DNA from: an uncultured Spirochaetaceae bacterium
GTDB taxonomy: Bacteria > Spirochaetota > Spirochaetia > Sphaerochaetales > Sphaerochaetaceae
Reading direction: 5' to 3'
DNA length: 44,091 bases
NCBI GenBank assembly: GCA_944392975.1
Contig: CALXYN010000014.1
Location: 1-44,091 of the forward strand
This document shows, in pieces, positions 5,986 to 43,970 of this stretch (positions are counted from its first letter, which is position 1; every line of letters starts with the position of its first letter). A program made the translations under genes and the position numbers. The notes under the pieces are model-generated. The model worked only from the letters and a program-made list of their open reading frames with translations, was not told where the DNA came from and made no database searches.

Positions 5986-7956
5986 TCATATGGACCTGAT
6001 TTTTTCGCTTTCGATTGTTACATACCTGTCAATTGAGATGTTATCAGTTGCTTCCTGAGATATAGTCAAGCCCGAAATAATGGCAGGATCAAGTGCATTT
6101 CCATGAATCCTGATTTGTTTCTCTGAATTAAGGTTGGTGCTTACTGACCATGCTCCTGATAGATAGATATTGATATTATCATCATCTGTAGTATTCAGGA
6201 AATCAATCAGAGCATTTCCATCTTTAAGGATTTTTGTTTTATAAGCCGTTGAGACAAGGATGCCTTCTGCAGGAATAGCCATATATGAAAGGCTGTCGAT
6301 ATCATAAGTTTCAGCTCCGGCAGGACGGCCTGGAAGTTCTGGGACATGGAGATTCGTTTTCGTCTCAACGATGAATTCTCCAAGGATGTAATCATCTGGT
6401 TTTGATATTTCGAGATTATCCCATGCCAGAATCTCTCCAGTATTATTTTCTAAATCCTCGATAGCACCTTCTATCTCATTTCCTGATGAATCATATACTG
6501 CAGATATATTCTGAATATTGCCTAGCATCAATTTCTTTTGAGGTCCTGTGTCGCCAATTCTGAAATCTGTACTGAAAATCAGATCAGTTGACGATGAGAT
6601 ATCCATGCTATTGCCTGCTGGAGAATAATCATTATCGAAGTAATATATTGAGAATAGATTCTGTCCAGCATACTTATTGTGAGCTTCTATTCTTCCGCCG
6701 TTTACATTTATAGAACACTTTGAAGAGCTATCAACAGCTAAAGTTGAGCCTGTATATGCTTGATCTCTTTCACATGATGTTCCTATCAAAGTCGTATTAT
6801 TCAGTATCGAATCAATATTCTGGGAATCAGATTGAATATAATATGCATACCAACCACTTAAAATCGAATCATTGATGGTAACGATACTCTTTGTGTCTGT
6901 AGTGTTTTTTCCACATCCATATAGTCTGAAGCCATATCCATGGCCATCTTCTATAATTGAGCTATTAGAAATATCGATATTCACTGTATCTGCAGATTCT
7001 ATATTGATTCCGATGCCATAAGCTCCTCCCGAAGAGTTATCTACAAAGATTGTTGAATTCTCAATTGTAAGATTCAATTCTGAATTCTCATCACCGGAAT
7101 TCATTACGAAATTCATACCAATCCGATATTCTTTAGAAGATTCCTCTACTAAAATATATGAATTTCTTAAAGTCACATCAGCGCTTTCAGGACCTGAATA
7201 TACCTGAATGCCTCTTACATCAATAGGTGGTATAATCGCACTGTTTTCTACAAGGAGATCAAAATGATCTAGTCCGGTAGCATTTTCTATTGATAATGAG
7301 TCAGAGCCATTTGTTTTTGTTATATAGACATTTTTGATTGCCACCCTTTCTTCTGTATCTATAGTGAGGTCTGCGTCAATGACTGTAGCGCCTGTAGCTG
7401 TATATGAAGCAGCACGTCCGTCAGTAAATGAAACAGGAGAAGAGCCTCCTCCGATTATCGTCATGCCATGATTTATCGTGAAATCATTAGTTGGGGAATC
7501 ATTAGTATTGTCAAATGATCCTGAGGGAAGATATAGAACGCTTATTTCTTCGTTTTTCAATATATTCTGGAGAGATGATTGTGTTTCATCTGCCGGGTCA
7601 TATATTATAGTTGAGGAATCAGCCGCTATATATTTTGCGGTCAATACCATATTCTTGCGGACTCTGCTCCCTTCATTTACTTCGTTGTTATCCTCATCAA
7701 ACCAGCCTAATGCTTTCAGGCCTTCCATCTGAGGAATTTCAGGAATTCTTGTAGATGAAATGGTATCATACACATATGGTTCATAATCCTGAATCTTTAT
7801 CTTCAGAGTCAGAACATATAAATTATCTGTGACTGGAGGGAACGGAACAACAATTACCTCCCTGCAGGACGAAAGCGCAAACAGAAGAAGCAGGAAAAAG
7901 ATAGGAATCCTGAAATTTAACCTCTGTTTCTCTCTCTCTCTCTTATTGGAAATCAT
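5986..7956 (-). CDS. Large surface lipoprotein with right-handed beta-helix repeats
   Basis: 656 residues. A charged N terminus and hydrophobic stretch end in a lipobox (ALSSC, Cys near residue 31), so LspA processing and lipid anchoring are expected. Residues about 70-110 resemble a Listeria-Bacteroides (InlB B-type) repeat: LGWFDEDNNEV, GSRVRKNMVLTAKY. The remainder is rich in Asn, Ser, Ile and Asp with recurring short strands (IENST, ITKTNGSDSLSIENA, TINDSIL), typical of a parallel beta-helix. A predicted adhesin or glycan-binding protein; no catalytic residues are recognised. The ATG at 7956 follows AGAGGTGA, and CATAAT at 7976-7981 (minus strand) is a plausible -10. It is monocistronic and flanked by repeat-rich DNA. 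Confidence 0.78.
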   Translation of the reverse strand: MISNKREREKQRLNFRIPIFFLLLLFALSSCREVIVVPFPPVTDNLYVLTLKIKIQDYEPYVYDTISSTRIPEIPQMEGLKALGWFDEDNNEVNEGSRVRKNMVLTAKYIAADSSTIIYDPADETQSSLQNILKNEEISVLYLPSGSFDNTNDSPTNDFTINHGMTIIGGGSSPVSFTDGRAASYTATGATVIDADLTIDTEERVAIKNVYITKTNGSDSLSIENATGLDHFDLLVENSAIIPPIDVRGIQVYSGPESADVTLRNSYILVEESSKEYRIGMNFVMNSGDENSELNLTIENSTIFVDNSSGGAYGIGINIESADTVNIDISNSSIIEDGHGYGFRLYGCGKNTTDTKSIVTINDSILSGWYAYYIQSDSQNIDSILNNTTLIGTSCERDQAYTGSTLAVDSSSKCSINVNGGRIEAHNKYAGQNLFSIYYFDNDYSPAGNSMDISSSTDLIFSTDFRIGDTGPQKKLMLGNIQNISAVYDSSGNEIEGAIEDLENNTGEILAWDNLEISKPDDYILGEFIVETKTNLHVPELPGRPAGAETYDIDSLSYMAIPAEGILVSTAYKTKILKDGNALIDFLNTTDDDNINIYLSGAWSVSTNLNSEKQIRIHGNALDPAIISGLTISQEATDNISIDRYVTIESEKIRSI

Positions 7957-16073: not shown

Positions 16074-16101
16074 AGCCCTGGATTTTTCCAGGGCTTCTTT
16101 T
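16074..16101 (+). terminator. Intrinsic terminator of pckG
   Basis: AGCCCTGG (16074-16081) and CCAGGGCT (16088-16095) form a perfect 8-base stem with a 6-base loop, followed by TCTTTT. It lies 22 bases after the stop codon. Confidence 0.92.
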
Positions 16102-16314: not shown

Positions 16315-16322
16315 GGGGGGGG
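16315..16322 (+). repeat. Homopolymeric tract of eight G upstream of the -35 element
   Basis: Eight consecutive G lie ten bases upstream of TTGACA at 16333. Poly-G tracts in this position are known to vary in length by slipped-strand mispairing and to switch transcription of surface-protein genes, for example tpr genes of Treponema pallidum. Only one allele is visible here, so variability is inferred. Confidence 0.6.
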
Positions 16323-16332
16323 TAAAGTTTTA

Positions 16333-16361
16333 TTGACAGCGTTTAGGGAAATATTTCATGT
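16333..16361 (+). promoter_or_regulatory. Promoter region of the chaperone-usher operon
   Basis: A perfect TTGACA (16333-16338) is the best -35 in the window. At 17-base spacing the -10 is poor (TCATGT); AATATT at 16350-16355 fits better but is too close. Dependence on an activator, or modulation by the adjacent G-tract, would be consistent. Confidence 0.5.
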
Positions 16362-16365
16362 CTTT

Positions 16366-16381
16366 GAAGTGCAAACACTTC
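16366..16381 (+). promoter_or_regulatory. Leader stem-loop just before the chaperone ribosome binding site
   Basis: GAAGTG-CAAA-CACTTC is a perfect 6-base hairpin ending four bases before GGGAGGAG. It may modulate ribosome access or mRNA stability. Confidence 0.4.
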
Positions 16382-16399
16382 GAAAGGGAGGAGACGTGT

Positions 16400-17137
16400 A
16401 TGTTCGCTAAACGAGTCTTGGCAGCGCTTTTGCTGTTGCTCATCTGTACATTCTCGCTTATGGCTTATCAGCTGTCGCCGTTGAATGTTACATATGATCC
16501 AACCGGTGCAGGCAGTGCCAAGGTCTATACAATAGTTAATGACTCTGATGCGCCAATTGCCATTGAAGTGAGAGCTGAGCAGAGAATTGTTGATATTGAT
16601 GGCAATGAAGCCAATCAGGATGGATCGGCATATTTTTCTATTCAGCCAAACCGTATGATTATCCGTCCGGATTCTACACAGCTTGTACGCGTGCAGTACA
16701 GAGGTCCGCAAACAGTTACAAGAGAACTTTCTTTCAGGATAATCTCTGAGCAGATTCCTATGCCTCGTGGAGCGCAGGAAGAAGAATCTGGACAGATGAT
16801 ATCCTTCCTCTTTGTATATTCAACAAGTGCATATGTCCGCCCATCAAGAATTGTCGAGAGTGTTACATCATCTGTGAATACGACAAGTGATAATAAGCTT
16901 GAAATAATTCTTGAAAACACAGGCAGCGTTCATCAGATGCTTAATGATCTTTCCATCACTCTTACAGGGGACGATGGAAGCACCTATACACTTTCAGAAG
17001 AAGAACTGCAGCCCCTCTTAGGACAGAATCTTCTCACGGATTCAAAGCTGAGGACAATTATTACAAAACCAGAAGTGCTTTCAGCTGCTACAGAAATATC
17101 TGCAGCAATAAGTTACGACTATACCTATTCAACCTGA
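16400..17137 (+). CDS. PapD-like periplasmic pilus chaperone
   Basis: 245 residues with a Sec signal peptide (MFAKRVLAALLLLLICTFSLMA). The mature protein is two Ig-like domains. Chaperone features are the N-domain strands around VTYDPTGAGSAKVYTIVN, SDAPIAIEVRAEQR, a conserved Tyr-Arg-Gly-Pro after VRVQ, and the motif LSFRIISEQIPMP (family pattern R-x-I/L-x-E-Q-L/I-P). Such chaperones complete the Ig fold of pilus subunits by donor-strand complementation and hand them to the usher. The start is the ATG at 16400, six bases after GGGAGGAG. First gene of the operon; the usher gene begins 46 bases downstream. The family assignment is strong; partners are inferred from context. Confidence 0.82.
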   Translation: MFAKRVLAALLLLLICTFSLMAYQLSPLNVTYDPTGAGSAKVYTIVNDSDAPIAIEVRAEQRIVDIDGNEANQDGSAYFSIQPNRMIIRPDSTQLVRVQYRGPQTVTRELSFRIISEQIPMPRGAQEEESGQMISFLFVYSTSAYVRPSRIVESVTSSVNTTSDNKLEIILENTGSVHQMLNDLSITLTGDDGSTYTLSEEELQPLLGQNLLTDSKLRTIITKPEVLSAATEISAAISYDYTYST

Positions 17138-17183
17138 ATCGGCTGATTAAGAGATTTTATTTATCAGGAAAAAGGAGACGGGT

Positions 17184-20100
17184 ATGGTTCGGCGTTTCGC
17201 TATTATTATCTTGTCGTCTCTGACGGCGGGTTGTACAGCGTATTTGGCCCTGTTTTCAAAGAACATGGGCCAGGGTCTTTCTGTGATTCTTGGTTATGCC
17301 ATTCTCTTGATGTCGTCGGTACTTATGAATCTATGCATTCATGGAAGTACTGACAGCACGAAGAGAACGGCTCTGCTTGTCTTCTCACTTGGAGTTCTAG
17401 TCTTCTTCCTTGGCGGAATAATTTACATACTTTTTACCTCCGAACAGTATAAGTATGTCTCTCCATCCCCTCCTGTGGAAAACCACAGCACGGAAAGCAA
17501 TGCCTCTGATGTAGCGAAAGCTACTGAGAATGAAGGGACAGATATCACCCCCACAAACACAGAGCCCTCTGTTTCAGAGCATAGCCTAACTGAAAGTCAG
17601 GAGCCGTTCTCCTCTTCTTCCGATATAGAAGAATACCATACAGATCTGTCTGTTCACCAGCCTTCAGCGCCATCAGTATTCAATACCATCACAGCCATTG
17701 ATACTGAAAGCATAATAATTGAAATAGAAGATACGGAAAAACAGGAATCTATTGTTTTGCCTGATGCCGATGAGAGCACAGAGTCTGTGATGGCTGATGC
17801 AATTCCATCGGAAATTTCTGAAGGTATTCCTCGCGATATGACAGCACAGGAGCATTTCGATGATTTCTGGGCAAGCTTCTATGTCCAAGGTGAAGATGAG
17901 TTCCTGCTTGAAGATGGCATTTATTACATGACGCTTGTCATAAACGGGAATGAAATTGGCGATATAACTGTGAATATCCAGGATGGGAAACCCTCCCTTT
18001 ATGCCAATGAGATAAAAACCTATGTTCAGGATACGATTACTGATGAAGCCGAATTAAGAATATTCGGCGGTAATGAGATGTATCTGACCATCGATGACTT
18101 CAATTCCCTTGGTGTCGAGACAGAATTTGACAGCCTTGGATATACAGTATTGATGCAGTTTAGCTCGGAAGATATGCCAGTACAGATACTCAGTATCCGC
18201 ACTCCGATGAGCAGATTTCTCGAAAAACCGCCTATCACAGATTCAATCTGGCTTGATCCTGCTGTTTTTGTGCTTTCCTCAAGATATTCCTTTACCGGAA
18301 ACTTCACGCTCAATCCAATCTCTCGTTTTACCGATACCTTGAATTTCAATTTGTCTGCATATAACACCGGACGTCTCTTTGATGTGAACTTCGATTTCAA
18401 TTATTCGATGCGTTTTGGTCTTGATTACTTTGATTTCAATTTCGGTTCCTATGAATTTAATTATGATTTTGAAGATGCAATGATTCGTCTCAGCTGGGGA
18501 AATATCTCGACCCATCTCTTGTCTCCTGCTGGCACGAATCTTGGAATCAGATTTGAGAAGAACCTTTCATACGGTCCTGTGAACGCGAGAGGTAAAAGCC
18601 ATATAGAGCAGATAATAACAATAGAGAAAGAATCCGAAATCCAGGTAATAAATGAAGGACGTGAGATTTTCCACAAGACTCTTCAGCCTGGAAATTACCG
18701 CTTGCAGGATTTTGTTCTCTATACAGGTGCGAACAGAATAAAAATCATTGTCACGCCAATCGACGGAAGTCCATCTTATGAGAAGGATATAGAGCTTTCA
18801 TACTCAAGCTCATTGCTTGCACCTGGAGAGATTTATTTTGGTGGTGCAATTGCAACGGGACGTAGAATCGTCAATTCATCCTCTTCTCAGATTGCTGGAA
18901 GCATAAGGCTTCCTCTTTGGAATAACAGGAGCCTTGAATATGATTGGCGCAATGTTGTGCTTTCGGGAAATATAAGAATGGGACTTTCAAAGAGTCTAAC
19001 GCTCGATGCTTCTTTTGCCCTGCAGAATGAAGTAAGCGATGAAGCTGTGTTCAGGCCACAGGGAAAGCTTGCCATGGAATTTACCCATGCCAACATACTT
19101 GGTACCAGTAGATACAATCTCAATGTAACTGCGGAGACTGATGATTACGGGGATTTCCTTCTTCCAGGTATTTATGCGCATTTTGGACACCAGGTTTATA
19201 CTGGATTCTCTCCTGTAAGCTCCGTCAATCTTGGTCTTACATATGAGACAGATGTTGGCGATATGTTCTCCGATCACAGATTCTCTCTGTCTACGAGCTT
19301 TTCCGGTGGCTACGGAATATTCAGCTGGGGCCTTTCGCTTTCCGGCTCTCTCCGGACAGAAAGACCTAGTGACATAATATGGTCAACATCAGCATCCGCA
19401 TCATTCTCGTTCTCCAGAAATTTCTATCTCAGCGCAAGTGCTTCGATGGGTGGGTTATCTGGGGATATGCAGTATATTAACGGAAGAGTCGGTGCGACGT
19501 TCAGGTTCAGCCCGGCAACTGTCAATGTAACTGCTTCCACATATGAAACATCTGCAGAAGTAAGTATAAGGGAATCTGGGCATTCATTCTCCGCCGAAGT
19601 CTCTACCGATGATATCACTACATTTGATTCCTATTCCCTCGATGCTGATTACTCCTATTCAGGCGATTATGTTAATGTCGGTTTTGGCCTTAATGCCAGC
19701 GATATATTCGACAGTGTTACTGGTTCCGTCTCGCTTTCAACGTCATCGGTGTTTGCGGATGGCTATATGGCGTTCAGTTCATACCTTCCATCGAATTTCA
19801 TGTTCATCGTACAGGAAGGAGGGCTGGAGGGAAATACTCTATCTGCCGGTGTTGCAGGACAATCTGCTTCTGTTGAGATACCCACATGGTTCAATGTTGG
19901 CTTGTACAGAAACATACCGAGAAACCGTGGAACATCCCTTTCACTTTTCAGCATGGGGGAGGGTTCCTTTGGCAGTATGCAGGACTTCGATGTATATATC
20001 CCTGCTTCAAAGACTGCGGGTTATGTTCTCCATATTGAAGCTGATAGGGTTTACACGATTGCGGGCTATGTCAGCCTACCTGATGGAAGTGTATGGAGCA

Positions 20101-20459
20101 ATGGCTCTTCTCCTGTATATCGCATGACAGTGGATGGTAAGGATGCCAATCTCGAACAGGTTGATGAATACATCTTCTCCGATAACGATGGACTCTTCGT
20201 TCTCTCAGGTCTTGCGCCGGGAAGATATGCTTTTGACATTAATACTGAGGATGGAAAATGGTTCCTTTGCTCTTTTGTTGTTGAGGATGCTCCTGATCAT
20301 ATCGGAGAGATGCAGTTTATCGATACTGTTGTTGAAGATCAGAGCATAGAAGTATCAGAACCATACGGCGGTACATACAGCTTCACAGGCAATCGGTATT
20401 TCATGACAGGTGATGAGTTCTGGGCAATGCTCTATCCGGAGTTTGAGGTGGCTGTATGA
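17184..20459 (+). CDS. Giant usher-like outer-membrane protein with an N-terminal triple-helix membrane anchor
   Basis: 1091 residues; the start ATG follows AAGGAG by six bases. Residues 5-24, 32-52 and 63-84 are three hydrophobic helices. Residues about 87-215 are an acidic Ser/Thr/Glu linker. From about 220 the protein looks like an usher: an N-terminal domain (IYYMTLVINGNEIGDITVNI), a long array of barrel strands (RYSFTGNFTLNP, FDFNYSMRFGLDYFDFNFG), and the characteristic usher stretch IQVINEGREIFHKTLQPGNY with LQDFVLY. Residues about 955-1045 form a carboxypeptidase-regulatory-like Ig domain (YTIAGYVSLPDGS, GLFVLSGLAPGRYAF). An usher secretes and assembles subunits at the outer membrane. 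A multi-helix N terminus instead of a cleavable signal is unusual. Its stop overlaps the first subunit gene (ATGA). Confidence 0.75.
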   Translation: MVRRFAIIILSSLTAGCTAYLALFSKNMGQGLSVILGYAILLMSSVLMNLCIHGSTDSTKRTALLVFSLGVLVFFLGGIIYILFTSEQYKYVSPSPPVENHSTESNASDVAKATENEGTDITPTNTEPSVSEHSLTESQEPFSSSSDIEEYHTDLSVHQPSAPSVFNTITAIDTESIIIEIEDTEKQESIVLPDADESTESVMADAIPSEISEGIPRDMTAQEHFDDFWASFYVQGEDEFLLEDGIYYMTLVINGNEIGDITVNIQDGKPSLYANEIKTYVQDTITDEAELRIFGGNEMYLTIDDFNSLGVETEFDSLGYTVLMQFSSEDMPVQILSIRTPMSRFLEKPPITDSIWLDPAVFVLSSRYSFTGNFTLNPISRFTDTLNFNLSAYNTGRLFDVNFDFNYSMRFGLDYFDFNFGSYEFNYDFEDAMIRLSWGNISTHLLSPAGTNLGIRFEKNLSYGPVNARGKSHIEQIITIEKESEIQVINEGREIFHKTLQPGNYRLQDFVLYTGANRIKIIVTPIDGSPSYEKDIELSYSSSLLAPGEIYFGGAIATGRRIVNSSSSQIAGSIRLPLWNNRSLEYDWRNVVLSGNIRMGLSKSLTLDASFALQNEVSDEAVFRPQGKLAMEFTHANILGTSRYNLNVTAETDDYGDFLLPGIYAHFGHQVYTGFSPVSSVNLGLTYETDVGDMFSDHRFSLSTSFSGGYGIFSWGLSLSGSLRTERPSDIIWSTSASASFSFSRNFYLSASASMGGLSGDMQYINGRVGATFRFSPATVNVTASTYETSAEVSIRESGHSFSAEVSTDDITTFDSYSLDADYSYSGDYVNVGFGLNASDIFDSVTGSVSLSTSSVFADGYMAFSSYLPSNFMFIVQEGGLEGNTLSAGVAGQSASVEIPTWFNVGLYRNIPRNRGTSLSLFSMGEGSFGSMQDFDVYIPASKTAGYVLHIEADRVYTIAGYVSLPDGSVWSNGSSPVYRMTVDGKDANLEQVDEYIFSDNDGLFVLSGLAPGRYAFDINTEDGKWFLCSFVVEDAPDHIGEMQFIDTVVEDQSIEVSEPYGGTYSFTGNRYFMTGDEFWAMLYPEFEVAV

Positions 20460-21211
20460 AGAGACTGATTGTACTGTTACTGACAATTTGCTTCATGCTT
20501 TCCCCCGTTATTTCTGAAGCGGAGGAAACTCTTACGATAAAAGCCTACAAAACAGGTGGAAGTAGTACTGAGCCTTATCTTGTGTTATACGCCATAGACT
20601 CTATAACAGATGGTTCACAGCTTGAGAATATTGATTCTGTACATTCAGGTATTGACCTCGATGAATTCGTAGATAATGGTAGTGGAAATCTGCTCGGCAC
20701 ACTGCCAAGTGGTACATCTTCCGATGGACTTGCTTATGGAAACATTGTCTTCTCATACAGGGCGGAGGGAAATTTTGAAGGTAAGTTCGAAGTCACAACT
20801 GATATTGAAAGTTTTGAATATACAGATGATCTCGGAAAATCTTATTACATCGATGCCTATTATGAGCCGAAGAACAAGAGCATAGGTTTCAATACCGGTA
20901 ACTCTCCTGCAACTATAACGGAATCTGGAGTCACCGTCTCACTATCTTCCAATCCATCGCATCAAATCTCAAGGTCACGTGCTGTAACTCCCGGAAAACG
21001 TACAGAGGGGCCTGTTGGTGTAACATTCTTATCTTCCTGGGAGGTCTCGGATGGTTCTAATTCGACGGAATACGGCTTGGTAGATGAGACCTGGATTGTC
21101 AGAGAAGCTATGTATCTGATTCTGAAGGAAAGTGGAGAGACTGGTAGCTTTGAATCAGCTCCCGATGGCACGTATAGAGCTCTTGTGACAATGAAACTGG
21201 AGGTAAAATGA
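20456..21211 (+). CDS. Secreted putative pilus subunit 1
   Basis: 251 residues with a Sec signal peptide (MKRLIVLLLTICFMLSPVISEA). The mature part is beta-rich with many Gly, Ser, Asp and Tyr and no Cys. It ends in a strand with Tyr twelve residues from the end (GTYRALVTMKLEVK), the pattern shared by all nine small genes of the operon. An internal segment, SRSRAVTPGKRTEGPVGVTF, resembles the region before the last strands in spore-coat-U or fimbrial proteins. The ATG overlaps the usher stop. No homologue is recognised by eye; the subunit role is inferred from position and architecture. Confidence 0.6.
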   Translation: MKRLIVLLLTICFMLSPVISEAEETLTIKAYKTGGSSTEPYLVLYAIDSITDGSQLENIDSVHSGIDLDEFVDNGSGNLLGTLPSGTSSDGLAYGNIVFSYRAEGNFEGKFEVTTDIESFEYTDDLGKSYYIDAYYEPKNKSIGFNTGNSPATITESGVTVSLSSNPSHQISRSRAVTPGKRTEGPVGVTFLSSWEVSDGSNSTEYGLVDETWIVREAMYLILKESGETGSFESAPDGTYRALVTMKLEVK

Positions 21212-21921
21212 TGAAGAGGGGAATTTTATCTGTACTGCTGATTCTCTTGCTATCCTTTAGTCTGTTCAGCTCCGCTGATTCCATTCATGAATTCACAAGA
21301 TCTTTTACTATCCAGGCTGGTCGTAGCGAGTTCTCCACCTTGGTTATTACCCCAATATCCTCACAGACCGAGAACTATCGAATCGGTATGCCTTTCAATA
21401 TCGAGGATGTGCAGGTCCAGAGCACGAACCTGACAACAGGAAGAACCATTGCGGAGTGGTCATTAATCTCAAATACAGAGTTCGACATACTTATAGATGC
21501 AAAACCTATGAAATACATCGGCAGCGAAGGTTCTTCCCCTGATATCCCTATCCCATATATGCTCACGTTTGATTGTGACCTTTCCTTGGCTTCTGGAGGA
21601 CAGGAGAATATCAGTTTCTATTTTGATATGGGAGAAACTGGAGAGTCCGATAACTGTGGAATTTCCCATGGCGACACACAAATAGATGCTGCCGAAGCAC
21701 TTGGCGATAGTCCAACTCATCCTGGAGCTAAATCATTCGAGTTCGATATTCTTTCAGGTCTTTCCTCCGGTCTTGCAGAAGGAGGTGCTTTTCTTGGTTC
21801 TTTGAATGGAACCATAGACTTCAAATTCACAAGAATTACCTCTGAAGAATTAGCAAGTTCTGACTATCCTGCAGGTCAGTATGAAGCTGAGGTGATTGTC
21901 ACACTAAGGGAGGTTGAATAA
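21211..21921 (+). CDS. Secreted putative pilus subunit 2
   Basis: 236 residues. The start is taken as the ATG at 21211, seven bases after GGAGG (21199-21203); the ATG at 21208 is only four bases away. A signal peptide (MKRGILSVLLILLLSFSLFSSA) precedes a beta-rich body. A Cys pair is possible (one in FDCDLSL, one in NCGISHG). The C terminus GQYEAEVIVTLREVE carries the shared Tyr strand. The body includes PTHPGAKSFEFDILSGLSSGLAEGG-like Gly/Ser-rich turns. The coding region overlaps the neighbours by single bases on both sides, which favours coordinated translation. Confidence 0.6.
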   Translation: MKRGILSVLLILLLSFSLFSSADSIHEFTRSFTIQAGRSEFSTLVITPISSQTENYRIGMPFNIEDVQVQSTNLTTGRTIAEWSLISNTEFDILIDAKPMKYIGSEGSSPDIPIPYMLTFDCDLSLASGGQENISFYFDMGETGESDNCGISHGDTQIDAAEALGDSPTHPGAKSFEFDILSGLSSGLAEGGAFLGSLNGTIDFKFTRITSEELASSDYPAGQYEAEVIVTLREVE

Positions 21922-23501
21922 TGAAACGTATACTCTTGTTGATTCTATCATTAATCATTCTTTCAGCTTCCATTGTGGCTGATGAGCCGGAAGAAGGAGA
22001 GAGAGAAGAAATATTGAGGATTCTGAATGACATACAGTCTGGAGTAGTTGTTGAAATAATGCCAGATACAGGTGCCTATGGCGTTAATATGCGTGACTCT
22101 CGTTATCCTGAGCGAGATGCAGGAGCACTACTTAGTTATAGTGACATAGACATCGATACACTCAGCCCCAGCAGCGATGATTTTAGAAAAATATATGTTC
22201 CTGCCCAGATGGTTCTGCTTGCAGGTGTAGAGAATGTTCCAACGGAAAGCTCCCTGATAACTTATAGAAGAGAATATACGACAAATAGTCCGTATATAAG
22301 AGAAGATGTTCCTGCTTTTCGGATTATTTTCGAAGATGATCCTAGAAATGAAAGTGGAATGTCTTCAGTTGATATTGATATAAGAAGTTCGACCGACTAT
22401 ATGTATGTCTCACAGTCAAATCCGATTTATCAGAGGCCATACAAGCTCTATGCATCACCAAGATACAATTTCTCCGATGGCACTGTGGATAACCAGGATA
22501 AAACTCATCACTCTGGAGAAAGCATTGAATTCTACAACGATCATATCAGCGATAACATAGATTTTCACCCAGATAAAGCCGGTGGATATTCTCATATGAA
22601 TACATGGTTTGATCTCATCCTTGCTCTCCCATATGACTCTTACAATGAATCTGGTGTTCTTTGGGATAATAAAGAATTTCCGCTAGCAGATAGCAATGAC
22701 TACTCGTCTGTTGTAACAATCACAATAGTGTGGGATCAGAAATATAGAATTGAATATAATGAAGGGAATTGGGAGTCTGTTTGGTGGGCTGGTTGGCGTT
22801 ATTGCTACGATTCTCCTCGGTGGGTCGATTACACATCAAAGCTTGGTGTATCCGGCGTCCTGAGAGTTGAAAAGACGCTTTCAATCCCTTTCTCCGGTTT
22901 CTCCTCAACCATTGAATCTGGTCCGCTTGATGATACAGGAAGCCTTGTAATCACACCATATCCAGCAGCATCGAACTTAAGTCTTGATGCGGAGGATACA
23001 GGAGGAGATGCAATACCTGTTGCCGAAATTCAGTTCATCATGACATATGGATCTACAAATTATGTGCTGAACCCGTCCACATCGAATACCTGGATATTCT
23101 TATCAGCAAGTCCAGATCCATATGCAAGTAATCCAAATGGATTTATGCTGGTGCATGATGAAGCTGGAAGCATTCTCACTTCATATAACAGTACACCTTA
23201 TACTGTTACAGTTACAGGGATAACTGCTAATTCTGATGGAGCTGGTGGAGATGAGGTTGTCTTTGACGGCAAGGAAAAAGCTGCGGATTTCTATCTCAAC
23301 CAGACTGGTCCTGACAGCTATATCCATACAGAGCCTAATTACAATCTGGAGCTTCCGCATACACATGGCAAGTACTCACATTACAGCGAGTATGAAGGAA
23401 TTGTAAGCGTTCAGATACCGAGAACACCTGTTGCCGCAGATGGAATGCGAGCCGGACGTTACACAAGTGAAATTTATATCCATGTGATGACGGAGAAGTA
23501 G
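21921..23501 (+). CDS. Large secreted protein of the pilus operon, candidate tip adhesin
   Basis: 526 residues, more than twice the size of the other subunits. A signal peptide (MKRILLLILSLIILSASIVA) is followed by an acidic stretch (EPEEGEREEI) and a long domain rich in Tyr, Ser, Asp and Asn. A Trp-rich patch lies near residues 285-300 (NWESVWWAGWRYCYDSPRW), typical of carbohydrate-facing surfaces. The last part has Ig-like strands and ends GRYTSEIYIHVMTEK, the shared terminal strand. In chaperone-usher systems, two-domain subunits with a C-terminal pilin domain are tip adhesins; that role is inferred. The start overlaps the previous stop by one base (TAATG), with GGGAGG seven bases upstream. 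Confidence 0.6.
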   Translation: MKRILLLILSLIILSASIVADEPEEGEREEILRILNDIQSGVVVEIMPDTGAYGVNMRDSRYPERDAGALLSYSDIDIDTLSPSSDDFRKIYVPAQMVLLAGVENVPTESSLITYRREYTTNSPYIREDVPAFRIIFEDDPRNESGMSSVDIDIRSSTDYMYVSQSNPIYQRPYKLYASPRYNFSDGTVDNQDKTHHSGESIEFYNDHISDNIDFHPDKAGGYSHMNTWFDLILALPYDSYNESGVLWDNKEFPLADSNDYSSVVTITIVWDQKYRIEYNEGNWESVWWAGWRYCYDSPRWVDYTSKLGVSGVLRVEKTLSIPFSGFSSTIESGPLDDTGSLVITPYPAASNLSLDAEDTGGDAIPVAEIQFIMTYGSTNYVLNPSTSNTWIFLSASPDPYASNPNGFMLVHDEAGSILTSYNSTPYTVTVTGITANSDGAGGDEVVFDGKEKAADFYLNQTGPDSYIHTEPNYNLELPHTHGKYSHYSEYEGIVSVQIPRTPVAADGMRAGRYTSEIYIHVMTEK

Positions 23502-23510
23502 GAGGAAGTG

Positions 23511-23975
23511 ATGATATCTAAGAAAGCATTATTACTGATTCTTATTCTTCTGCCAGTTCAGTTATTCTCCTCTGATACTTCATTCAAGTCATTCAGGGAG
23601 CTTCCTGAATCATACTCCTTTGGTGTTGAAGGAGGAGATGTCTTGGTTCTTTCCGAGAATGAAGAAGGGGTAGCATATGGTGGAGTCGATTTGCATTACC
23701 AGGCTGTAAATCCTGGAGATGTGGAGTTATATGTCAATTCATTCCCTATTAAAAATGCCTCGGATGATGACATAGATTACATCTATGCAATCAACAATAC
23801 GACTGGTTCCTTGATTTTCGGAACGACAGACGACGATGAAATGCTGATTCACCGCTACACTCCAGGGAGCCTCTCTGAAAGCGGGGAGATGACGATGCGA
23901 GTAAAAACTCTCGATAGTACCACAAGCGATGCAAGCTTGCCAGGTTACATGGTCCTGAAAGTGAGGAGCTTATGA
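23511..23975 (+). CDS. Secreted putative pilus subunit 4 (small)
   Basis: 154 residues, the shortest of the set. The ATG at 23511 lies five bases after GGAGG (23501-23505), which overlaps the previous stop codon. The signal peptide is MISKKALLLILILLPVQLFS. The mature protein is acidic with strands such as YGGVDLHYQAVNPGDVELYV and ends PGYMVLKVRSL, with Tyr nine residues from the end. Its small size would suit an adaptor or terminator subunit, but that is speculation. The stop overlaps the next ATG (ATGA). Confidence 0.58.
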   Translation: MISKKALLLILILLPVQLFSSDTSFKSFRELPESYSFGVEGGDVLVLSENEEGVAYGGVDLHYQAVNPGDVELYVNSFPIKNASDDDIDYIYAINNTTGSLIFGTTDDDEMLIHRYTPGSLSESGEMTMRVKTLDSTTSDASLPGYMVLKVRSL

Positions 23976-24547
23976 GAAAATTTCTTATCTTCATGATTCT
24001 CCTGATCTCCGTTTTTTCACTTTCCGCCGCCAGTAGCAGTCCTTTAGCCTTGGGCGCTGAATACGAAGGAGAGACGATTGAATCTGGGGCGAATGTAGCA
24101 GCGACTAATATAACGTTGGATTTATCAGGGCTTTTCCTTGCAAATATCTGGTTTGAATCTGAAGCGGAGACACCAATCCAGAATGGCGAAATCCGCCTTA
24201 TTTCTTCTACAGATGGAACTGCAATTGGGTATGTGAATCTATCATGGCTCGTCATCTCATCCAGCCCAATAACCCTCATTTTTTCTGCAGATGGAAAACT
24301 CGGAAAACCAGAAGGAATAGGAGGGGAAATAAACTGGGCTCTGTATAGGACTGAAAACAGCGAGGAGAAGCTGGTATTTGATACAGCGGGGACTATGTCC
24401 TCCGAGGAAATAGAAATCGGAATAGAAGAAGGGGAAGGTAAATCGAGTGGTAACATCCCATTGGTTATCAGGACAGCGCCTTATTCTTCTGCATCTTACG
24501 ATTATGATTACAGTGCAATTCTGAAGCTCAATGTAAGAGCTGATTGA
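23972..24547 (+). CDS. Secreted putative pilus subunit 5
   Basis: 191 residues with a signal peptide (MRKFLIFMILLISVFSLSAA). The body has alternating strands (ITLDLSGLFLANIWFESEAE, GYVNLSWLVISSSPITLIF) and a Glu/Gly-rich turn (EEIEIGIEEGEGKSSGN), and ends DYDYSAILKLNVRAD with Tyr twelve residues from the end. It shares with subunits 6 and 7 the layout of a hydrophobic central strand, a xxWxIxR/K-type stretch (INWALYRTENS here) and the terminal Tyr strand, which suggests these genes arose by duplication. AGGAG lies three bases before the start, which overlaps the upstream stop. Confidence 0.6.
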   Translation: MRKFLIFMILLISVFSLSAASSSPLALGAEYEGETIESGANVAATNITLDLSGLFLANIWFESEAETPIQNGEIRLISSTDGTAIGYVNLSWLVISSSPITLIFSADGKLGKPEGIGGEINWALYRTENSEEKLVFDTAGTMSSEEIEIGIEEGEGKSSGNIPLVIRTAPYSSASYDYDYSAILKLNVRAD

Positions 24548-24568
24548 TTGTACAAAGGAGAGAAAAGA

Positions 24569-25153
24569 ATGAAAAAAATTTTATTTGTTCTCATTATGCT
24601 GCTGGCAGTAGGTATGCTCTCAGCAGCTACGTCGGTTACTTTGGATGGCTCTACCAGGAATGGTGAAGCAACTCTTAAAGTTGTTCTTCCACTCAAATCT
24701 GGAGAATTCGAGTACATTACTGTAGGGTTTACAGATTCTGAAGTAGATACAGCAGAAACAGGAGCGTTTGCTGTTGTTACACCGTATGCATCAGGAGAAG
24801 TAAAACTTGATTCTGATGGAGATAACACGGCTTCTATTAAAAGTAATCTTTATGCTTACTGGCAGATTCGTACAAACAGTACTGTGACAGTTACTCTTTC
24901 AAAAGATAAAGCTCTTACAGGCGAAAGCGTTAGCGATACAATCGACTGGAAGATTGTTGCCGATAGTAAAACTCAGGATATGAACGACTATGATACAACA
25001 AATGCAATTACTCTTGTAAATGCTTGGAAGGCAGCGGGAGGTTCAACAATCAATCAGGGAAGCGCTCAGATTACCATCGATACAGAGGATTATTCTGGTA
25101 AACCGACTGATGACTACTCTGCAAATCTTGTACTTAATGTAGCAGCGGTTTGA
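24569..25153 (+). CDS. Secreted putative major pilus subunit (subunit 6)
   Basis: 194 residues. The ATG at 24569 follows AAGGAG by eight bases and, unlike most subunits here, the gene stands free with short spacers on both sides. Signal peptide MKKILFVLIMLLAVGMLSAA. The mature protein is rich in Thr, Ala, Ser and Val, the usual composition of major pilins, with strands TSVTLDGSTRNGEATLKVVL, YAYWQIRTNSTVTVTLSKD and SDTIDWKIVADSK, and ends DDYSANLVLNVAAV. The hairpin at 25166-25194 immediately downstream could stabilise its mRNA or reduce downstream expression. Together these points make it the best candidate for the shaft protein; no direct proof. Confidence 0.62.
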   Translation: MKKILFVLIMLLAVGMLSAATSVTLDGSTRNGEATLKVVLPLKSGEFEYITVGFTDSEVDTAETGAFAVVTPYASGEVKLDSDGDNTASIKSNLYAYWQIRTNSTVTVTLSKDKALTGESVSDTIDWKIVADSKTQDMNDYDTTNAITLVNAWKAAGGSTINQGSAQITIDTEDYSGKPTDDYSANLVLNVAAV

Positions 25154-25165
25154 GTAAAACTGACA

Positions 25166-25194
25166 GCTGCACTATGTAGTGGGGATAGTGCAGC
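25166..25194 (+). promoter_or_regulatory. Intercistronic stem-loop after the putative major subunit gene
   Basis: GCTGCACTAT (25166-25175) pairs perfectly with ATAGTGCAGC (25185-25194) across a 9-base loop. It starts 13 bases after the stop codon. There is no T-tract, so it is more likely an mRNA-stability or processing element than a full terminator. Confidence 0.75.
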
Positions 25195-25214
25195 AATTTA
25201 CCTTGGGGTGAATG

Positions 25215-25844
25215 ATGAAGAGAATTGCGATTTTGATGATTATTCTATTAATTACAGGTTTTTGCTTTGCATCTGGGACGGAAACATCTGTGACGATTCA
25301 GTATGATGCAGATTCTCCGTTCGAAAGTGCGGAAGTATCTGCTGTCCTGTCTTTGAAGCCTTCTTCATCATTCAGCTATAAGGTTGGGTTCACAACATCA
25401 GGATCCTCTTATAATTCACCTGTCGCGACAATTCCTTTGACGCCTGCAATAGATACAGAGCAGAGTACATTTACTTTTGAACCTCTTACGGAGATTTATG
25501 TTTATTGGGATATATTCGGAACAGATCCATTTCGTCTTATGCTTGGTGCAACAGGACCTCTGACGACGGAGAACAGCGAGAGTTTTATAGGATGGAAAAT
25601 CAGTAGGCTGGATGGAGAGGGAACGACAATAACCTGGGATTCGATTCCGGAAGATTGGGAAAGTGCTGTTGATTCAAAGACGATTGAAATAATGCGATAT
25701 ACCTATTCCGGCCGGGGGCTTCCCGTGGAACAGAATAACAGACAGCTGAGGATTGAGCCTACTCTGCCGTCAAATAAAATTTCGGGTTATACCGCTACGA
25801 CATATAATGCATATCTTGTGCTGTCCTTGGAGACGATAGAATGA
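25215..25844 (+). CDS. Secreted putative pilus subunit 7
   Basis: 209 residues. The second of two adjacent ATGs (25215) is chosen because GGGG/GGTGA sits six bases upstream. Signal peptide MKRIAILMIILLITGFCFAS. Strands such as TSVTIQYDADSPFESAEVSA, IYVYWDIFGTDPFRLMLGAT and SFIGWKISRLDGE parallel subunit 6 in order and spacing; the terminal strand is TTYNAYLVLSLETIE. It is probably a paralogue of subunit 6. It follows the intercistronic hairpin, so it should be made in smaller amounts. The stop overlaps the next start (ATGA). Confidence 0.6.
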   Translation: MKRIAILMIILLITGFCFASGTETSVTIQYDADSPFESAEVSAVLSLKPSSSFSYKVGFTTSGSSYNSPVATIPLTPAIDTEQSTFTFEPLTEIYVYWDIFGTDPFRLMLGATGPLTTENSESFIGWKISRLDGEGTTITWDSIPEDWESAVDSKTIEIMRYTYSGRGLPVEQNNRQLRIEPTLPSNKISGYTATTYNAYLVLSLETIE

Positions 25845-26386
25845 TTAGAAAGGTTTTTATTGTAATCCTGTTTTTTGTTTCCATTTCATCATCTTTTGCT
25901 GTGCAGATTGACCCGATTTCCATGGACGTCTCGTTTACATCTGGTCTTGTCGCGAATTTTGGGTTTTCCACGTATCCTCCAGATTCTGCGATTAAACCTG
26001 AGTCATCTGTCCCTTCTGTGATTGAATTCACTTACAATGATAGAACGGGTAACTTCGAGACTCCGACATATTATATCTATTACCAGGTTTTCACTCCGGT
26101 TAATGCGCCTTTGAAGGTTAGTGTTGTTGCTACTGGGCTTAGAAACATTAATGACAGTAATGATATTCTTGTGTGGAATGACCGCGAGGGGAATATTAAG
26201 TGTATCGAAAATCCCGATGCTTTTGATAACCCTAGTCCACATAAAACACCAATCGAATCCAATCTCACTATCGACAGGGAACCTGCAAATTACGACTCCA
26301 AGGCATTTAAGCTTGAAGTCAATGCCAGTGAAGTGAATTACGATGCCGCATACCGCGGTCAGATTACAGTTTATATCGAGTCATGA
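25841..26386 (+). CDS. Secreted putative pilus subunit 8
   Basis: 181 residues with a signal peptide (MIRKVFIVILFFVSISSSFA). The mature part begins VQIDPISMDVSFTSG and contains YYIYYQVFTPVNAPLKVSVV, comparable to the central YWxIxG strands of subunits 6 and 7. One Cys (IKCIEN). The C terminus AAYRGQITVYIES has Tyr eleven residues from the end. The ATG overlaps the previous stop. No external family is recognised. Confidence 0.58.
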   Translation: MIRKVFIVILFFVSISSSFAVQIDPISMDVSFTSGLVANFGFSTYPPDSAIKPESSVPSVIEFTYNDRTGNFETPTYYIYYQVFTPVNAPLKVSVVATGLRNINDSNDILVWNDREGNIKCIENPDAFDNPSPHKTPIESNLTIDREPANYDSKAFKLEVNASEVNYDAAYRGQITVYIES

Positions 26387-26387
26387 T

Positions 26388-27038
26388 ATGAAAAGATGCC
26401 TTTTTATTCTGCTATGTTTGCTATCAGTATTTGCTATCAACGCGGTAGAGACTCTGCCTGTGCCTGATGAAATTAAATTTGAAATGTATTTCAGGAAAGA
26501 GAATCAGCCGACATTCTGCTTTGTTGAAGAGGAGCCTTCAACAATTCCTGTAGAAGGAACAATTGCTGATATCTCTCAGATTGCTTTTCCTACAGTATAT
26601 TCTCAGGCAGATTCTGATTATAGTTCCGATAAGGTAGCAGCGATTGCATTGTATTGGGATGTATATGGAACATCTCTGACGATTGATCTCATGTTCTCCG
26701 GCTCCCAATCAACCGATACGGGGACTTGTTATATGCTTTCAAATACACAGGGAGGAAATGGATACAACTATAATGTTGAGATTACGTCGAAGCATGAAAG
26801 CATTGATCAGGAAAGAATTAGTTTATTTACGGAGAGCGAGATGAGTTCTGAATCATTTCATTCCCCATTGGATGGGACTTCTCGTAGTTTGAGCCTTATC
26901 TCTAATGAGAGCATCCTTGATGGTAGAGCTTCCGGTAGCGTGACTCTTGATATGACACTACCATTTCCAACTGAGACAGGCTTTGCGATGGGGCAGTACA
27001 CCGGAACGATAACCGCGAGTATTATTGTGGAAGACTAA
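26388..27038 (+). CDS. Secreted putative pilus subunit 9 (last gene of operon)
   Basis: 216 residues. The ATG at 26388 lies one base after the previous stop and has no clear ribosome binding site, so translation is probably coupled; the upstream in-frame ATG at 26343 would bury the signal peptide. Signal peptide MKRCLFILLCLLSVFAINA. The body includes AAIALYWDVYGTSLTIDLMFSG, again the YWDxxGT strand of subunit 7, and two Cys residues (FCFVEE and TCYMLS). The terminal strand is GQYTGTITASIIVED. The last codons overlap by four bases with the convergent lipoprotein gene, leaving no space for a terminator between them. Confidence 0.58.
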   Translation: MKRCLFILLCLLSVFAINAVETLPVPDEIKFEMYFRKENQPTFCFVEEEPSTIPVEGTIADISQIAFPTVYSQADSDYSSDKVAAIALYWDVYGTSLTIDLMFSGSQSTDTGTCYMLSNTQGGNGYNYNVEITSKHESIDQERISLFTESEMSSESFHSPLDGTSRSLSLISNESILDGRASGSVTLDMTLPFPTETGFAMGQYTGTITASIIVED

Positions 27039-39561: not shown

Positions 39562-39590
39562 TTGCAAAAAAACAGAGCAGAATGGAATAT
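39562..39590 (+). promoter_or_regulatory. Candidate promoter of the GH28-GH38 operon
   Basis: TTGCAA (39562-39567), 17 bases, GAATAT (39585-39590). The -35 equals that of the tRNA and asd promoters; the -10 is weak. Confidence 0.4.
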
Positions 39591-39621
39591 GTCTGTAAAA
39601 GCTGGCTATAAGGAGATTTCA

Positions 39622-40950
39622 ATGGATTATAACGTTTTTGACTACGGTGCAGTCGGAGATGGCAGAACTGATGATGTTCTTTGCATCCAGAAAGCAATAG
39701 ATGAAGCTTCGGAAGCAGGAGGGGGACGTGTCATCCTCGATGGGTGCAGAACCTATCTTTCTTCCTCCATTATATTGAAAAAAGGTGTGGACCTTCATGT
39801 TGTGAGAGGTTCAAAGCTTCTAGCAACTCCTGTTCTCGAAAACTATATGCACCCGAATGCCGGAAAGAAGGATGAAGGTGTTTCAATTGCAGGAACACCT
39901 GTGACACTTAAGCCATCCTATGCATTTATATACGCGCTCGATGCCGATGACATCGCCATTACAGGCGACGGTGAGATTGATGGCAACTGCTATGCTTTTG
40001 TTAAGCGCGTCTCAGAGTATTATGTCACCGGGGATTTCTACCCGCGCCCGACGATGATTTACATAGAGCATTGCAACCATGTCACAGTGAGGGATATCAC
40101 GCTGAGAAATGCTCCGTTCTGGACGCTGCATCCGGCAGGATGTTATGACGTATTGATCAGCAATATCCGTATTCTCAATCCTCTTGATGTTGCGAATTCG
40201 GATGGAATAGATCCTGATCATTCGTCAAATGTAAGGATTATTGGCTGCCATGTAGAGGCTGCTGATGATTGTATCTGTCTTAAGAGTTCTGCTGGTAATA
40301 TGGAGTATGGTCCTACTGAGAACATTGTGATTGCTGACTGTACTCTTAAATCCACATCGGCTGCACTCAAGATCGGAACCGAAGGAACGGGAAACTTCAA
40401 GAATATTGTGGTCCGTGGTGTGACAATCAGCGGCACAAACAGAGGAATTTCCATTCAGATAAGAGATCAGGGATGTGTGAAAAATGCAATTTTCTCAGAT
40501 ATCACAATTGAGACAAGACGCTTTGCTCCTTGCTGGTGGGGTACTGCAGAGCCTATTGCAATCACATCAATAAACAGAGTGGAAGGAAAGGAATCCGGCA
40601 CGATTGAGAATGTAGTATTTGAGAACATCTATGCCACTGGCGAAAATGGTGTATTCATCCACGGAAATCATAAAGTGAGAAACGTGAGAATGCGTAATGT
40701 GCGGATTGAAATGGCTACCACATCCAAATGGGAGAAGGGACTTTATGATTATCGTCCGGGAGAGGGAACAGAGGTTGTGAAAAAAGGATCATCTGCATTC
40801 TTCATCAATGGAGTGGATGGTCTTCTGCTTGAAGACTGCAGTGCTGCCATCAGTGACAAAGCAGAAGGAGATTTTGTGAGTGCCATTGAGATTGAGAACT
40901 CTGTGAACGTCGAGAATAGAAATTTTTCTGAGGAGGGATTTTCCCGATGA
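39622..40950 (+). CDS. GH28-like polygalacturonase family protein (cytosolic)
   Basis: 442 residues from the ATG at 39622, six bases after AAGGAG; upstream in-frame starts lack a site. It opens like GH28/pectate-lyase-fold enzymes (VFDYGAVGDGRTDD) and has a long right-handed beta-helix. The acidic catalytic motifs are there: ANSDGIDPD (NxD) and AADDCICLKS (DD). The usual Gly-His-Gly and Arg-Ile-Lys motifs are not evident; STSAALKIGTEGTG and SIQIRDQG occupy their places. No signal peptide, so it probably acts on imported oligosaccharides, perhaps with different chemistry. The stop overlaps the alpha-mannosidase start (ATGA). Confidence 0.82.
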   Translation: MDYNVFDYGAVGDGRTDDVLCIQKAIDEASEAGGGRVILDGCRTYLSSSIILKKGVDLHVVRGSKLLATPVLENYMHPNAGKKDEGVSIAGTPVTLKPSYAFIYALDADDIAITGDGEIDGNCYAFVKRVSEYYVTGDFYPRPTMIYIEHCNHVTVRDITLRNAPFWTLHPAGCYDVLISNIRILNPLDVANSDGIDPDHSSNVRIIGCHVEAADDCICLKSSAGNMEYGPTENIVIADCTLKSTSAALKIGTEGTGNFKNIVVRGVTISGTNRGISIQIRDQGCVKNAIFSDITIETRRFAPCWWGTAEPIAITSINRVEGKESGTIENVVFENIYATGENGVFIHGNHKVRNVRMRNVRIEMATTSKWEKGLYDYRPGEGTEVVKKGSSAFFINGVDGLLLEDCSAAISDKAEGDFVSAIEIENSVNVENRNFSEEGFSR

Positions 40951-43900: not shown

Positions 43901-43970
43901 AATTGAAGGCTCTTCTGTAAAGCGCACGTTCATGCCTTATGAAATCGTGACTTTCTATCTGCAGAGATGA
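40947..43970 (+). CDS. Alpha-mannosidase, glycoside hydrolase family 38
   Basis: 1007 residues, normal for class II GH38 enzymes. Family signatures: zinc-binding STHIDVAWKWPLRQTRQKA, EAEGGMWLESDCNL, the nucleophile Asp in ILWLPDAFGFNGNLPQI, and the later NQFHDILPGSAIDEVYD (zinc His and Asp region). The C-terminal half forms the usual beta-sandwich domains. There is no signal peptide; cytosolic hydrolysis of alpha-mannosides from N-glycans or plant glycans is likely. The overlapping start (ATGA) and an AGGAGGG upstream tie it to the GH28-like gene. A 5-base-stem hairpin with a T7 run overlaps the stop. Confidence 0.95.
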   Translation: MTDRRNRILAILNYLEKNLYSSSTSVSGIEIATATYSIPEIFPTDEVSWRHFATDETWGGMDSHFLFRASVKGEKDKPVAVLLQTDSRVRWSTDNPQILVYLNGSLRGTMDMNHQLIVLSEKCEGDEIFSLGFYAYANSRGRTNFFNLHRVVPSWNVMSLYFDMKNIFEAAVLLPSDDLERIKAFAALEKAIDVLDTRSSDLLAGSADSSRKILGNYLESRAESSVVVSSVGSTHIDVAWKWPLRQTRQKAVRSALTALNLMDHYPAFSFLLTQPQVYEFIREERPDVFNRIKERIKEGRWEAEGGMWLESDCNLASGESLVRQLIHGKRYIENVLGAPESKILWLPDAFGFNGNLPQIMKKAGIEYFMTTKISWSDTHIFPYDIFSWRGIDGSEVLSYFISTRDYGSDGRHTDYHTTYNGVQNASQIMGTWSRFQDKDILENVLTCYGYGDGGGGPTFEMLENSKRLSHSIARCPKTVHTSARAYFESLKENIKKPLPRWTGELYFEYHRGVMTSISEEKKWNRKIENLTHDAEFLSVLAHKSFAREFDSIWKTILLNQFHDILPGSAIDEVYDEAFREYGEAAEKDKAIIEESLSALFGDKGSALLAVNTTGHERTSLLVLNDCPEGVYSEKTFNGKYLVLAENVPAYGARTISSMNIPSLSVADGNPEDFETPFYKVMIDPNGCISSLFDKESNREVIKTGEAGNKIISYEDRPLRFDNWNTEEYYREKPYPWKRSGNIRFVENGKLRAVLEVNYESLSSKMTEHIVFYRHTKRIDFISSLDWDGDHLLVKAEFPVSVLSHSADYEIQFGSITRSTTTNTDWDRAAFEVPALRWSDISEPGFGVSLITDSRYGYSVRDGVMTVSLLKSGTEPAENADRGHHEFTYSVYPHEGTWRDGGTVLEAEDLNKPLIAFHSDCEVSMSFACSSKNNVVIDTIKEAEDGKGIVIRAYEAYGMRTEAELKFAESYRIHETDLLERKISEEIEGSSVKRTFMPYEIVTFYLQR

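Follow-up and report, generated by a model that had tools for sequence, protein, structure and literature searches.

The described systems closest to the one reported here are the archaic (sigma) pili, such as Csu of Acinetobacter baumannii, the alternative (alpha) pili, such as CFA/I and the E. coli common pilus, and the classical type 1 and P pili. Archaic pili have been described in Proteobacteria, Cyanobacteria and Deinococcus-Thermus, not in spirochaetes, and a conserved proline together with a super-conserved arginine in domain 1 marks archaic and alternative chaperones (PMC4654587). Here, we describe an eleven-gene operon from a 44,091-nucleotide stretch of DNA (the window; contig CALXYN010000014.1) of an uncultured gut Spirochaetaceae bacterium, encoding a PapD-like chaperone, an usher and nine secreted subunits. 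The locus is a real non-classical chaperone-usher system, a variant on known machinery, and we assign a probability of about 0.8 to the reading in which its usher retains an uncleaved inner-membrane anchor followed by a linker that crosses the periplasm. Gene content, family membership, the usher and pilin folds, and the anchor and linker with their conservation are read from sequence or prediction. In the open-licence papers searched, this architecture is not described for ushers, and it would break a basic assumption about them, namely that they are released from the inner membrane before insertion by the β-barrel assembly machinery (BAM).

The 1,091-residue product of the second gene is, on its predicted structure, an usher. 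A preliminary description of the locus had called it usher-like, a call to be given up if structure prediction showed no usher barrel; the model, computed with 20 relatives as input, contains a plugged barrel of about 24 strands. The top Foldseek match is FimD (E = 1.1e-29), PapC is also retrieved (E = 1.7e-25), and VIA-align gives a Z of 21.3 for FimD against 15.5 for the best non-usher. In FimD and PapC, the plug is likewise inserted between barrel strands 6 and 7. A disordered stretch spans residues 85–240 of the model, and beta domains lie at its C-terminus. The proposed profile search against the usher family PF00577 gave a divided answer, with no match for the window protein itself and matches in five of 22 orthologues (best E = 6.3e-6). 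Matches of the usher profile to ZipA, ATP synthase b and calnexin in the PDB fell in the linker only and were discarded as compositional, phmmer searches of the PDB with single proteins of the operon returned chance matches only, and weak HlyIII Pfam matches in the anchor (E = 0.02–0.08) were not taken as homology.

Each of the nine small proteins, first read as signal-peptide proteins, begins with a hydrophobic segment; the N-terminus of the usher is no ordinary signal peptide. Ushers generally carry a cleaved signal peptide directly before the N-terminal domain; in the window usher, an anchor and a linker are predicted there instead. All 49 ushers examined in the family begin with a hydrophobic helix or helices: 19 have one (with a second weak stretch in one of these), and 30 usually have three to seven, two being called in a few. 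Three to seven is usual in the genus of the window, whose own usher has three. The linker that follows has a median length of 149 residues in 22 aligned ushers, and Pro and Glu make up 16–53% of it, compared with 7–11% of the rest of the protein; by our estimate of 0.3 nm per residue, about 150 extended residues reach roughly 40 nm. We trained a cleavage-site matrix on chaperones and subunits from the same set of genomes. Held-out chaperones and subunits averaged 11.3 and 6.3, whereas single-helix ushers averaged 1.3, multi-helix ushers 2.1 and a scrambled control 1.8, such that the ushers scored no better than the control and, on average, no signal-peptidase site was recognized. Their hydrophobic stretch is also longer (median 20 vs 16.5–18). 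A mis-called usher start was rejected, no other hydrophobic export signal being present between the anchor and the usher domain. Because the anchor and linker occur in the family, cleavage scores are poor, and most ushers of other spirochaete families are free of the linker, we consider it probable that the ushers of this family stay anchored to the inner membrane, with the linker carrying the chain across to the outer membrane.

The eleven genes follow one another on the + strand from 16358/16400 to 27038 with no gene between, and the open reading frame map from 16400 bears out both this one-strand arrangement and the prevalence of overlapping joins given in the preliminary description. Of the nine junctions between the usher and subunit 9, five are overlapping, by 4 base pairs (bp; ATGA type) at usher–subunit 1 and at subunits 1–2, 4–5 and 7–8, and by 1 bp at subunits 2–3. 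The chaperone and usher are spaced by 46 bp, and gaps of 6, 21, 58 and 1 bp separate subunits 3–4, 5–6, 6–7 and 8–9, taking subunit 6 from an internal ATG at 24569 and subunit 9 from 26388. The operon is bounded on both sides, since a terminator-like hairpin lies upstream and the gene after subunit 9 is convergent. A search for the same gene order in other spirochaetes, as had been proposed, found it at 11 more loci, each encoding 9 to 14 subunits, which argues against a chance arrangement; with its tandem expansion, the subunit set is indeed unusually large. In the Pfam and NCBIfam scans, the chaperone alone passed the family cut-offs, so that annotation by families alone would leave the other ten products unnamed.

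The chaperone matches PapD_N (PF00345) at 33.1 bits, above the cut-off of 23, in agreement with the family first proposed, and an alignment of 38 chaperones covers both of its Ig domains. Its nearest relative of solved structure by profile is EcpB, a weak match (E = 0.039). Pro83 and Arg113 (numbering of alignment A5) are invariant in 20 sequences and align to the Pro/Arg region of EcpB, and the 38 chaperones show no conserved Arg or Lys at the classical basic pair of strands A1 and G1, the strands being placed by motif comparison and not by structure. Owing to this invariant pair and the missing classical one, the chaperone appears to belong with the non-classical branch, archaic or alternative. 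A PF00345 search of its own genome gave no match, although the chaperone passes the Pfam cut-off, its loose first pass missing the protein; since a known PapD_N protein was missed, absences from that genome search are weak evidence.

An iterated profile started from subunit 6 links 118 of the 122 subunits encoded by the operon of the window and its eleven relatives; the window's nine are all among those linked. A C-terminal strand pattern occurs in 116 of the 122, compared with 41 of 517 other long open reading frames of the same loci, a descriptive contrast and not an independent test, as the pattern was written after viewing these sequences. The predicted structure of subunit 6 is Ig-like, with the chain ending at the C-terminal strand. 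Foldseek matches to this model are led by CsuA/B, the CfaE pilin domain, the Csu pilus, CS17 and CfaB, and the VIA top 50 consist mostly of chaperone-usher pilins. The earlier idea that the small proteins are incomplete Ig-like folds is carried by the model for subunit 6 alone and by profile only for the other eight; with the usher fold and this predicted pilin, the reading of the locus as a divergent pilus or surface-fibre system is supported. The subunits appear nearest to non-classical chaperone-usher pilins on model comparison, and no Pfam match to the SCPU (spore coat U) domain, PF05229, was found among those of the window. In nearly every related operon, orthologues of subunits 1, 2 and 3 hold the same positions, the middle genes form a tandem-expanded set whose number varies between operons, and the last two positions usually recur; a fourth position found in other operons is absent here. 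Subunit 3, from its long two-part form, is likely the tip adhesin.

As its spirochaete-like sequence had suggested, the window comes from a spirochaete of a Sphaerochaetaceae-like family, in which the usher was found in 105 of 139 genomes by single sequence and in 104 by profile. Named records with the usher are Sphaerochaeta, uncultured Spirochaetales and one named Phocaeicola; this last contig (L052), filed as Candidatus Phocaeicola faecipullorum (Bacteroidota), carries the operon with a 63% identical usher and most likely belongs to a spirochaete and was mis-binned or mislabelled. In the genera examined elsewhere in the family, the chaperone-usher pair stands without subunits, mostly beside the same conserved genes, and in L031–L049 and L063–L076 mostly at one conserved place beside a run of housekeeping-like genes. 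Outside the window's genus, pilin genes lie elsewhere in the genome, often in tandem, some being recognized by weak matches only. A sample of the phylum yielded conventional-size ushers (open frames of 786–893 residues) in seven genomes of five other families; most begin with a hydrophobic stretch directly before the usher domain, without a linker, the start codon being uncertain for two. These mostly lie in compact, archaic-like pilin-chaperone-usher-tip operons (L109–L115), of which L109 has two chaperone genes and L110 a tip protein with an SCPU domain. We found no paper on Sphaerochaeta or spirochaete ushers in the open-licence literature searched, and the present data add spirochaetes to the bacteria with chaperone-usher pili, the system occurring throughout the Sphaerochaetaceae-like family and as compact operons in several other families of the phylum.

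In a tree of usher domains (FastTree, moderate support), multi-helix ushers group into a single clade that lies within the single-helix ones, and we take the single-helix anchor to be the ancestral state in the family. The extra ushers of genomes G013 and G008, from another genus, fall at separate places inside the multi-helix clade and within the window's genus, which suggests horizontal transfer of the operon. At L014 (G013) and L022 (G008), the expanded operon occurs in addition to the resident chaperone-usher pair (observed for G008) or near relatives of it.

Cell-wall genes were surveyed in 25 genomes of the window's genus that are 90% complete or more. None matches the transpeptidase of penicillin-binding proteins, compared with 46 of 56 other genomes of the family, and Mur-ligase matches number zero to two and are weak, whereas most other genera typically have four to six, with a strong best match; no clear MurC–F ligase was found in the genus of the window, where the matches are weak only. 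A diverged FtsW/RodA homologue is present. Judged by gene content, the genus is probably without ordinary peptidoglycan. Genera g3, g18, g21 and g22 resemble it in wall-gene pattern. The anchor and linker, together referred to as the tether, are also present in genera that keep cell-wall genes; for this reason, the tether is not a simple wall replacement, and an origin as the sole substitute for lost peptidoglycan was rejected.

The features of the operon are collected in Table 1. Elsewhere in the window, 5986–7956 on the − strand encodes a 656-residue secreted, lipoprotein-like protein of repetitive, beta-helix-like sequence, and adjoining genes at 39562–43970 resemble, by eye, a polygalacturonase-type glycosidase and an alpha-mannosidase, possibly a glycan-degrading pair.

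Table 1. Features of the chaperone-usher operon and its upstream boundary (window coordinates; pLDDT, predicted local distance difference test).
Feature	Coordinates	Strand	Basis or remark
Terminator-like hairpin, upstream boundary	16074..16095	+	Consensus scan (by itself no evidence of function); 3' of upstream gene resembling phosphoenolpyruvate carboxykinase (PEPCK)
Periplasmic pilus chaperone, PapD-like, signal peptide, two Ig domains	16400..17137 (reading frame open from 16358)	+	Pfam PapD_N; 38-member alignment
Usher, 1091 residues, with N-terminal membrane anchor and linker	17184..20459	+	Predicted fold matches FimD, PapC
Usher residues 1-84, putative uncleaved anchor, three predicted transmembrane helices (2-24, 30-54, 58-84)	17184..17435	+	Hydropathy; model; no signal-peptidase site
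Usher residues 85-224, disordered acidic S/T/E/P linker	17436..17855	+	pLDDT mostly about 23-32; composition
Usher N-terminal domain, expected chaperone-subunit docking site	17856..18173	+	Conserved block from near FWASFYVQGED; model strands/helices 245-325
Usher beta-barrel, residues 362-865, about 24 strands	18267..19778	+	Predicted structure; fold matches
Usher plug domain, residues 477-539, between barrel strands 6 and 7	18612..18800	+	Predicted structure
Usher C-terminal domains, including carboxypeptidase-regulatory-like Ig domain	19791..20459	+	Model; weak CarboxypepD_reg match in 10/22 orthologues
Subunit 1, always first in related operons	20456..21211	+	Comparison of related operons
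Subunit 2, always second	21208..21921	+	Comparison of related operons
Subunit 3, 526 residues, always third; pilin-like 368-525 behind about 340 extra residues; candidate tip adhesin	21921..23501	+	
Subunit 4, minor pilin, shortest; without C-terminal motif as written	23508..23975	+	Iterated profile; motif scan
Subunit 5, minor pilin, tandem-expanded set	23972..24547	+	Operon comparison; iterated profile
Subunit 6, structure-predicted pilin	24569..25153	+	pLDDT 84.1; Foldseek CsuA/B rank 1
Subunit 7, minor pilin, tandem-expanded set	25212..25844	+	Operon comparison; iterated profile
Subunit 8, penultimate	25841..26386	+	Operon comparison; iterated profile
Subunit 9, last	26388..27038	+	Operon comparison; iterated profile

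For the parts so assembled, we infer fibre formation, a tip role for subunit 3, a double-membrane topology in cells and a mechanical role, as follows. The chaperone would hold each incomplete Ig-like pilin in the periplasm, lending it a strand and gripping its C-terminus, and the N-terminal domain of the usher would receive the chaperone-subunit complexes. The plug-gated barrel would then polymerize and export the subunits into a heteropolymeric surface fibre, with subunit 3 at its tip as an adhesin. Through its N-terminal anchor (three helices here) and disordered linker, the usher would run as one chain from the inner membrane to the outer-membrane pore, and the anchor may ground the fibre mechanically on the inner membrane while keeping the assembly site near the export machinery. 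Such grounding may matter in a genus seemingly without peptidoglycan. A bolder version, which we put forward tentatively and at less than even odds, makes the usher a trans-envelope polypeptide grounding the pilus on the inner membrane and the cells of the window's genus peptidoglycan-free diderms, in which the tether doubles as a strut. If true, the tether raises the question of how a barrel of 24 strands can reach the outer membrane with an anchor still holding it behind, and bears on how a pilus is held under load in possibly wall-less cells.

Several points weigh against an anchored usher in a non-classical pilus operon. The usher model is of moderate quality (pLDDT 70.9; predicted template modelling score, pTM, 0.52), with the anchor helices at a pLDDT of only about 50–60, and the N-terminus was judged by hydropathy and a home-made cleavage matrix, not by a dedicated signal-peptide predictor. 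The Foldseek match of subunit 6 is individually weak (E = 4e-3), and its VIA matches have a Z of 7.2 or less with unrelated sandwiches at similar Z, so that the VIA match leans on context. Most of the genomes, including that of the window, are fragmented assemblies, many of them metagenome-derived. Finally, several ushers with a single transmembrane helix have a Cys just after the hydrophobic stretch, a possible non-canonical lipoprotein signal; this lipoprotein reading was judged improbable, as the −1/−3 residues misfit a lipobox and several orthologues have no Cys.

To our knowledge, every other outer-membrane usher loses its signal sequence, and a real pilus with an ordinary usher would conform to this rule, its N-terminus being removed by signal peptidase or by a later protease acting on the linker to leave a free, floppy-tailed usher in the outer membrane. 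On what is a crude matrix, four of the 19 single-transmembrane ushers do outscore the lowest tenth of true signal peptides, and the linker would be an easy protease target. Such trimming nevertheless seems unlikely to us, given the absence, on average, of a recognizable cleavage site, the longer hydrophobic stretch and the retention of anchor and linker throughout the family, about 100 genomes of which encode the usher; loss of the first helix would still leave others in place in the window's genus. That the tethered protein is mainly an envelope strut between the inner and outer membranes, with pilus assembly secondary or lost, we regard as very unlikely: the linker of about 150 residues could cross the periplasm in one chain, many genera have the chaperone-usher pair alone beside housekeeping-like genes, and the window's genus is without transpeptidase and clear Mur-ligase genes, but the usher keeps its conserved domains and plug, the chaperone is conserved as well, many of the genomes tested have pilin-like genes at other sites (some recognized by weak matches only), and the tether's occurrence alongside cell-wall genes argues that it did not arise to replace the wall.

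The large subunit set could also be a repertoire of alternative surface proteins, such as short fibres or single adhesins, in which duplication provides variation behind one shared usher. Subunits 5–7 and their relatives, tandem-expanded, fast-diverging and varying in number per operon, would fit such a repertoire, as would the scattered subunit clusters away from the usher in other genera. We consider it rather doubtful, however, since orthologues occupy the first three positions nearly everywhere and the last two usually recur, as expected of tip and base positions, and since the long, two-part build of a tip adhesin is seen in subunit 3 only.

Compared with known systems, the anchored usher operon shares with archaic pili the chaperone-usher-pilin logic, a subunit fold nearest CsuA/B, the non-classical Pro/Arg pair of the chaperone and the C-terminal strand motif of the subunits, and the compact pilin-chaperone-usher-tip operons of other spirochaetes, one with SCPU in the tip, extend this likeness. 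Archaic pili differ in having four subunits instead of nine or more, the window subunits have no SCPU Pfam match, and the window usher is, as predicted, anchored and linked. To the alternative pili, the system is related by EcpB as the best solved relative of the chaperone and by a pilin fold also close to CfaE and CfaB, while gene set, usher anchor and subunit number set it apart; no member of the alternative-pilus families in Pfam or NCBIfam was matched above cut-off. Classical pili have the same usher architecture, that of FimD and PapC, but differ in the chaperone, which here has no conserved basic residue in the strands of the classical anchor pair, and in the usher N-terminus. A parallel to the tether is found in PelB of the Pel exporter of Pseudomonas aeruginosa, a barrel of the outer membrane that keeps its N-terminal hydrophobic helix uncleaved and may have it inserted in the inner membrane (PMC12141448). 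As predicted from sequence and model, the window usher would likewise join a barrel to an uncleaved N-terminal hydrophobic helix and bridge both membranes, whereas PelB does so with a tetratricopeptide repeat (TPR) scaffold in polysaccharide export and the spirochaete protein with a disordered linker on a pilus usher.

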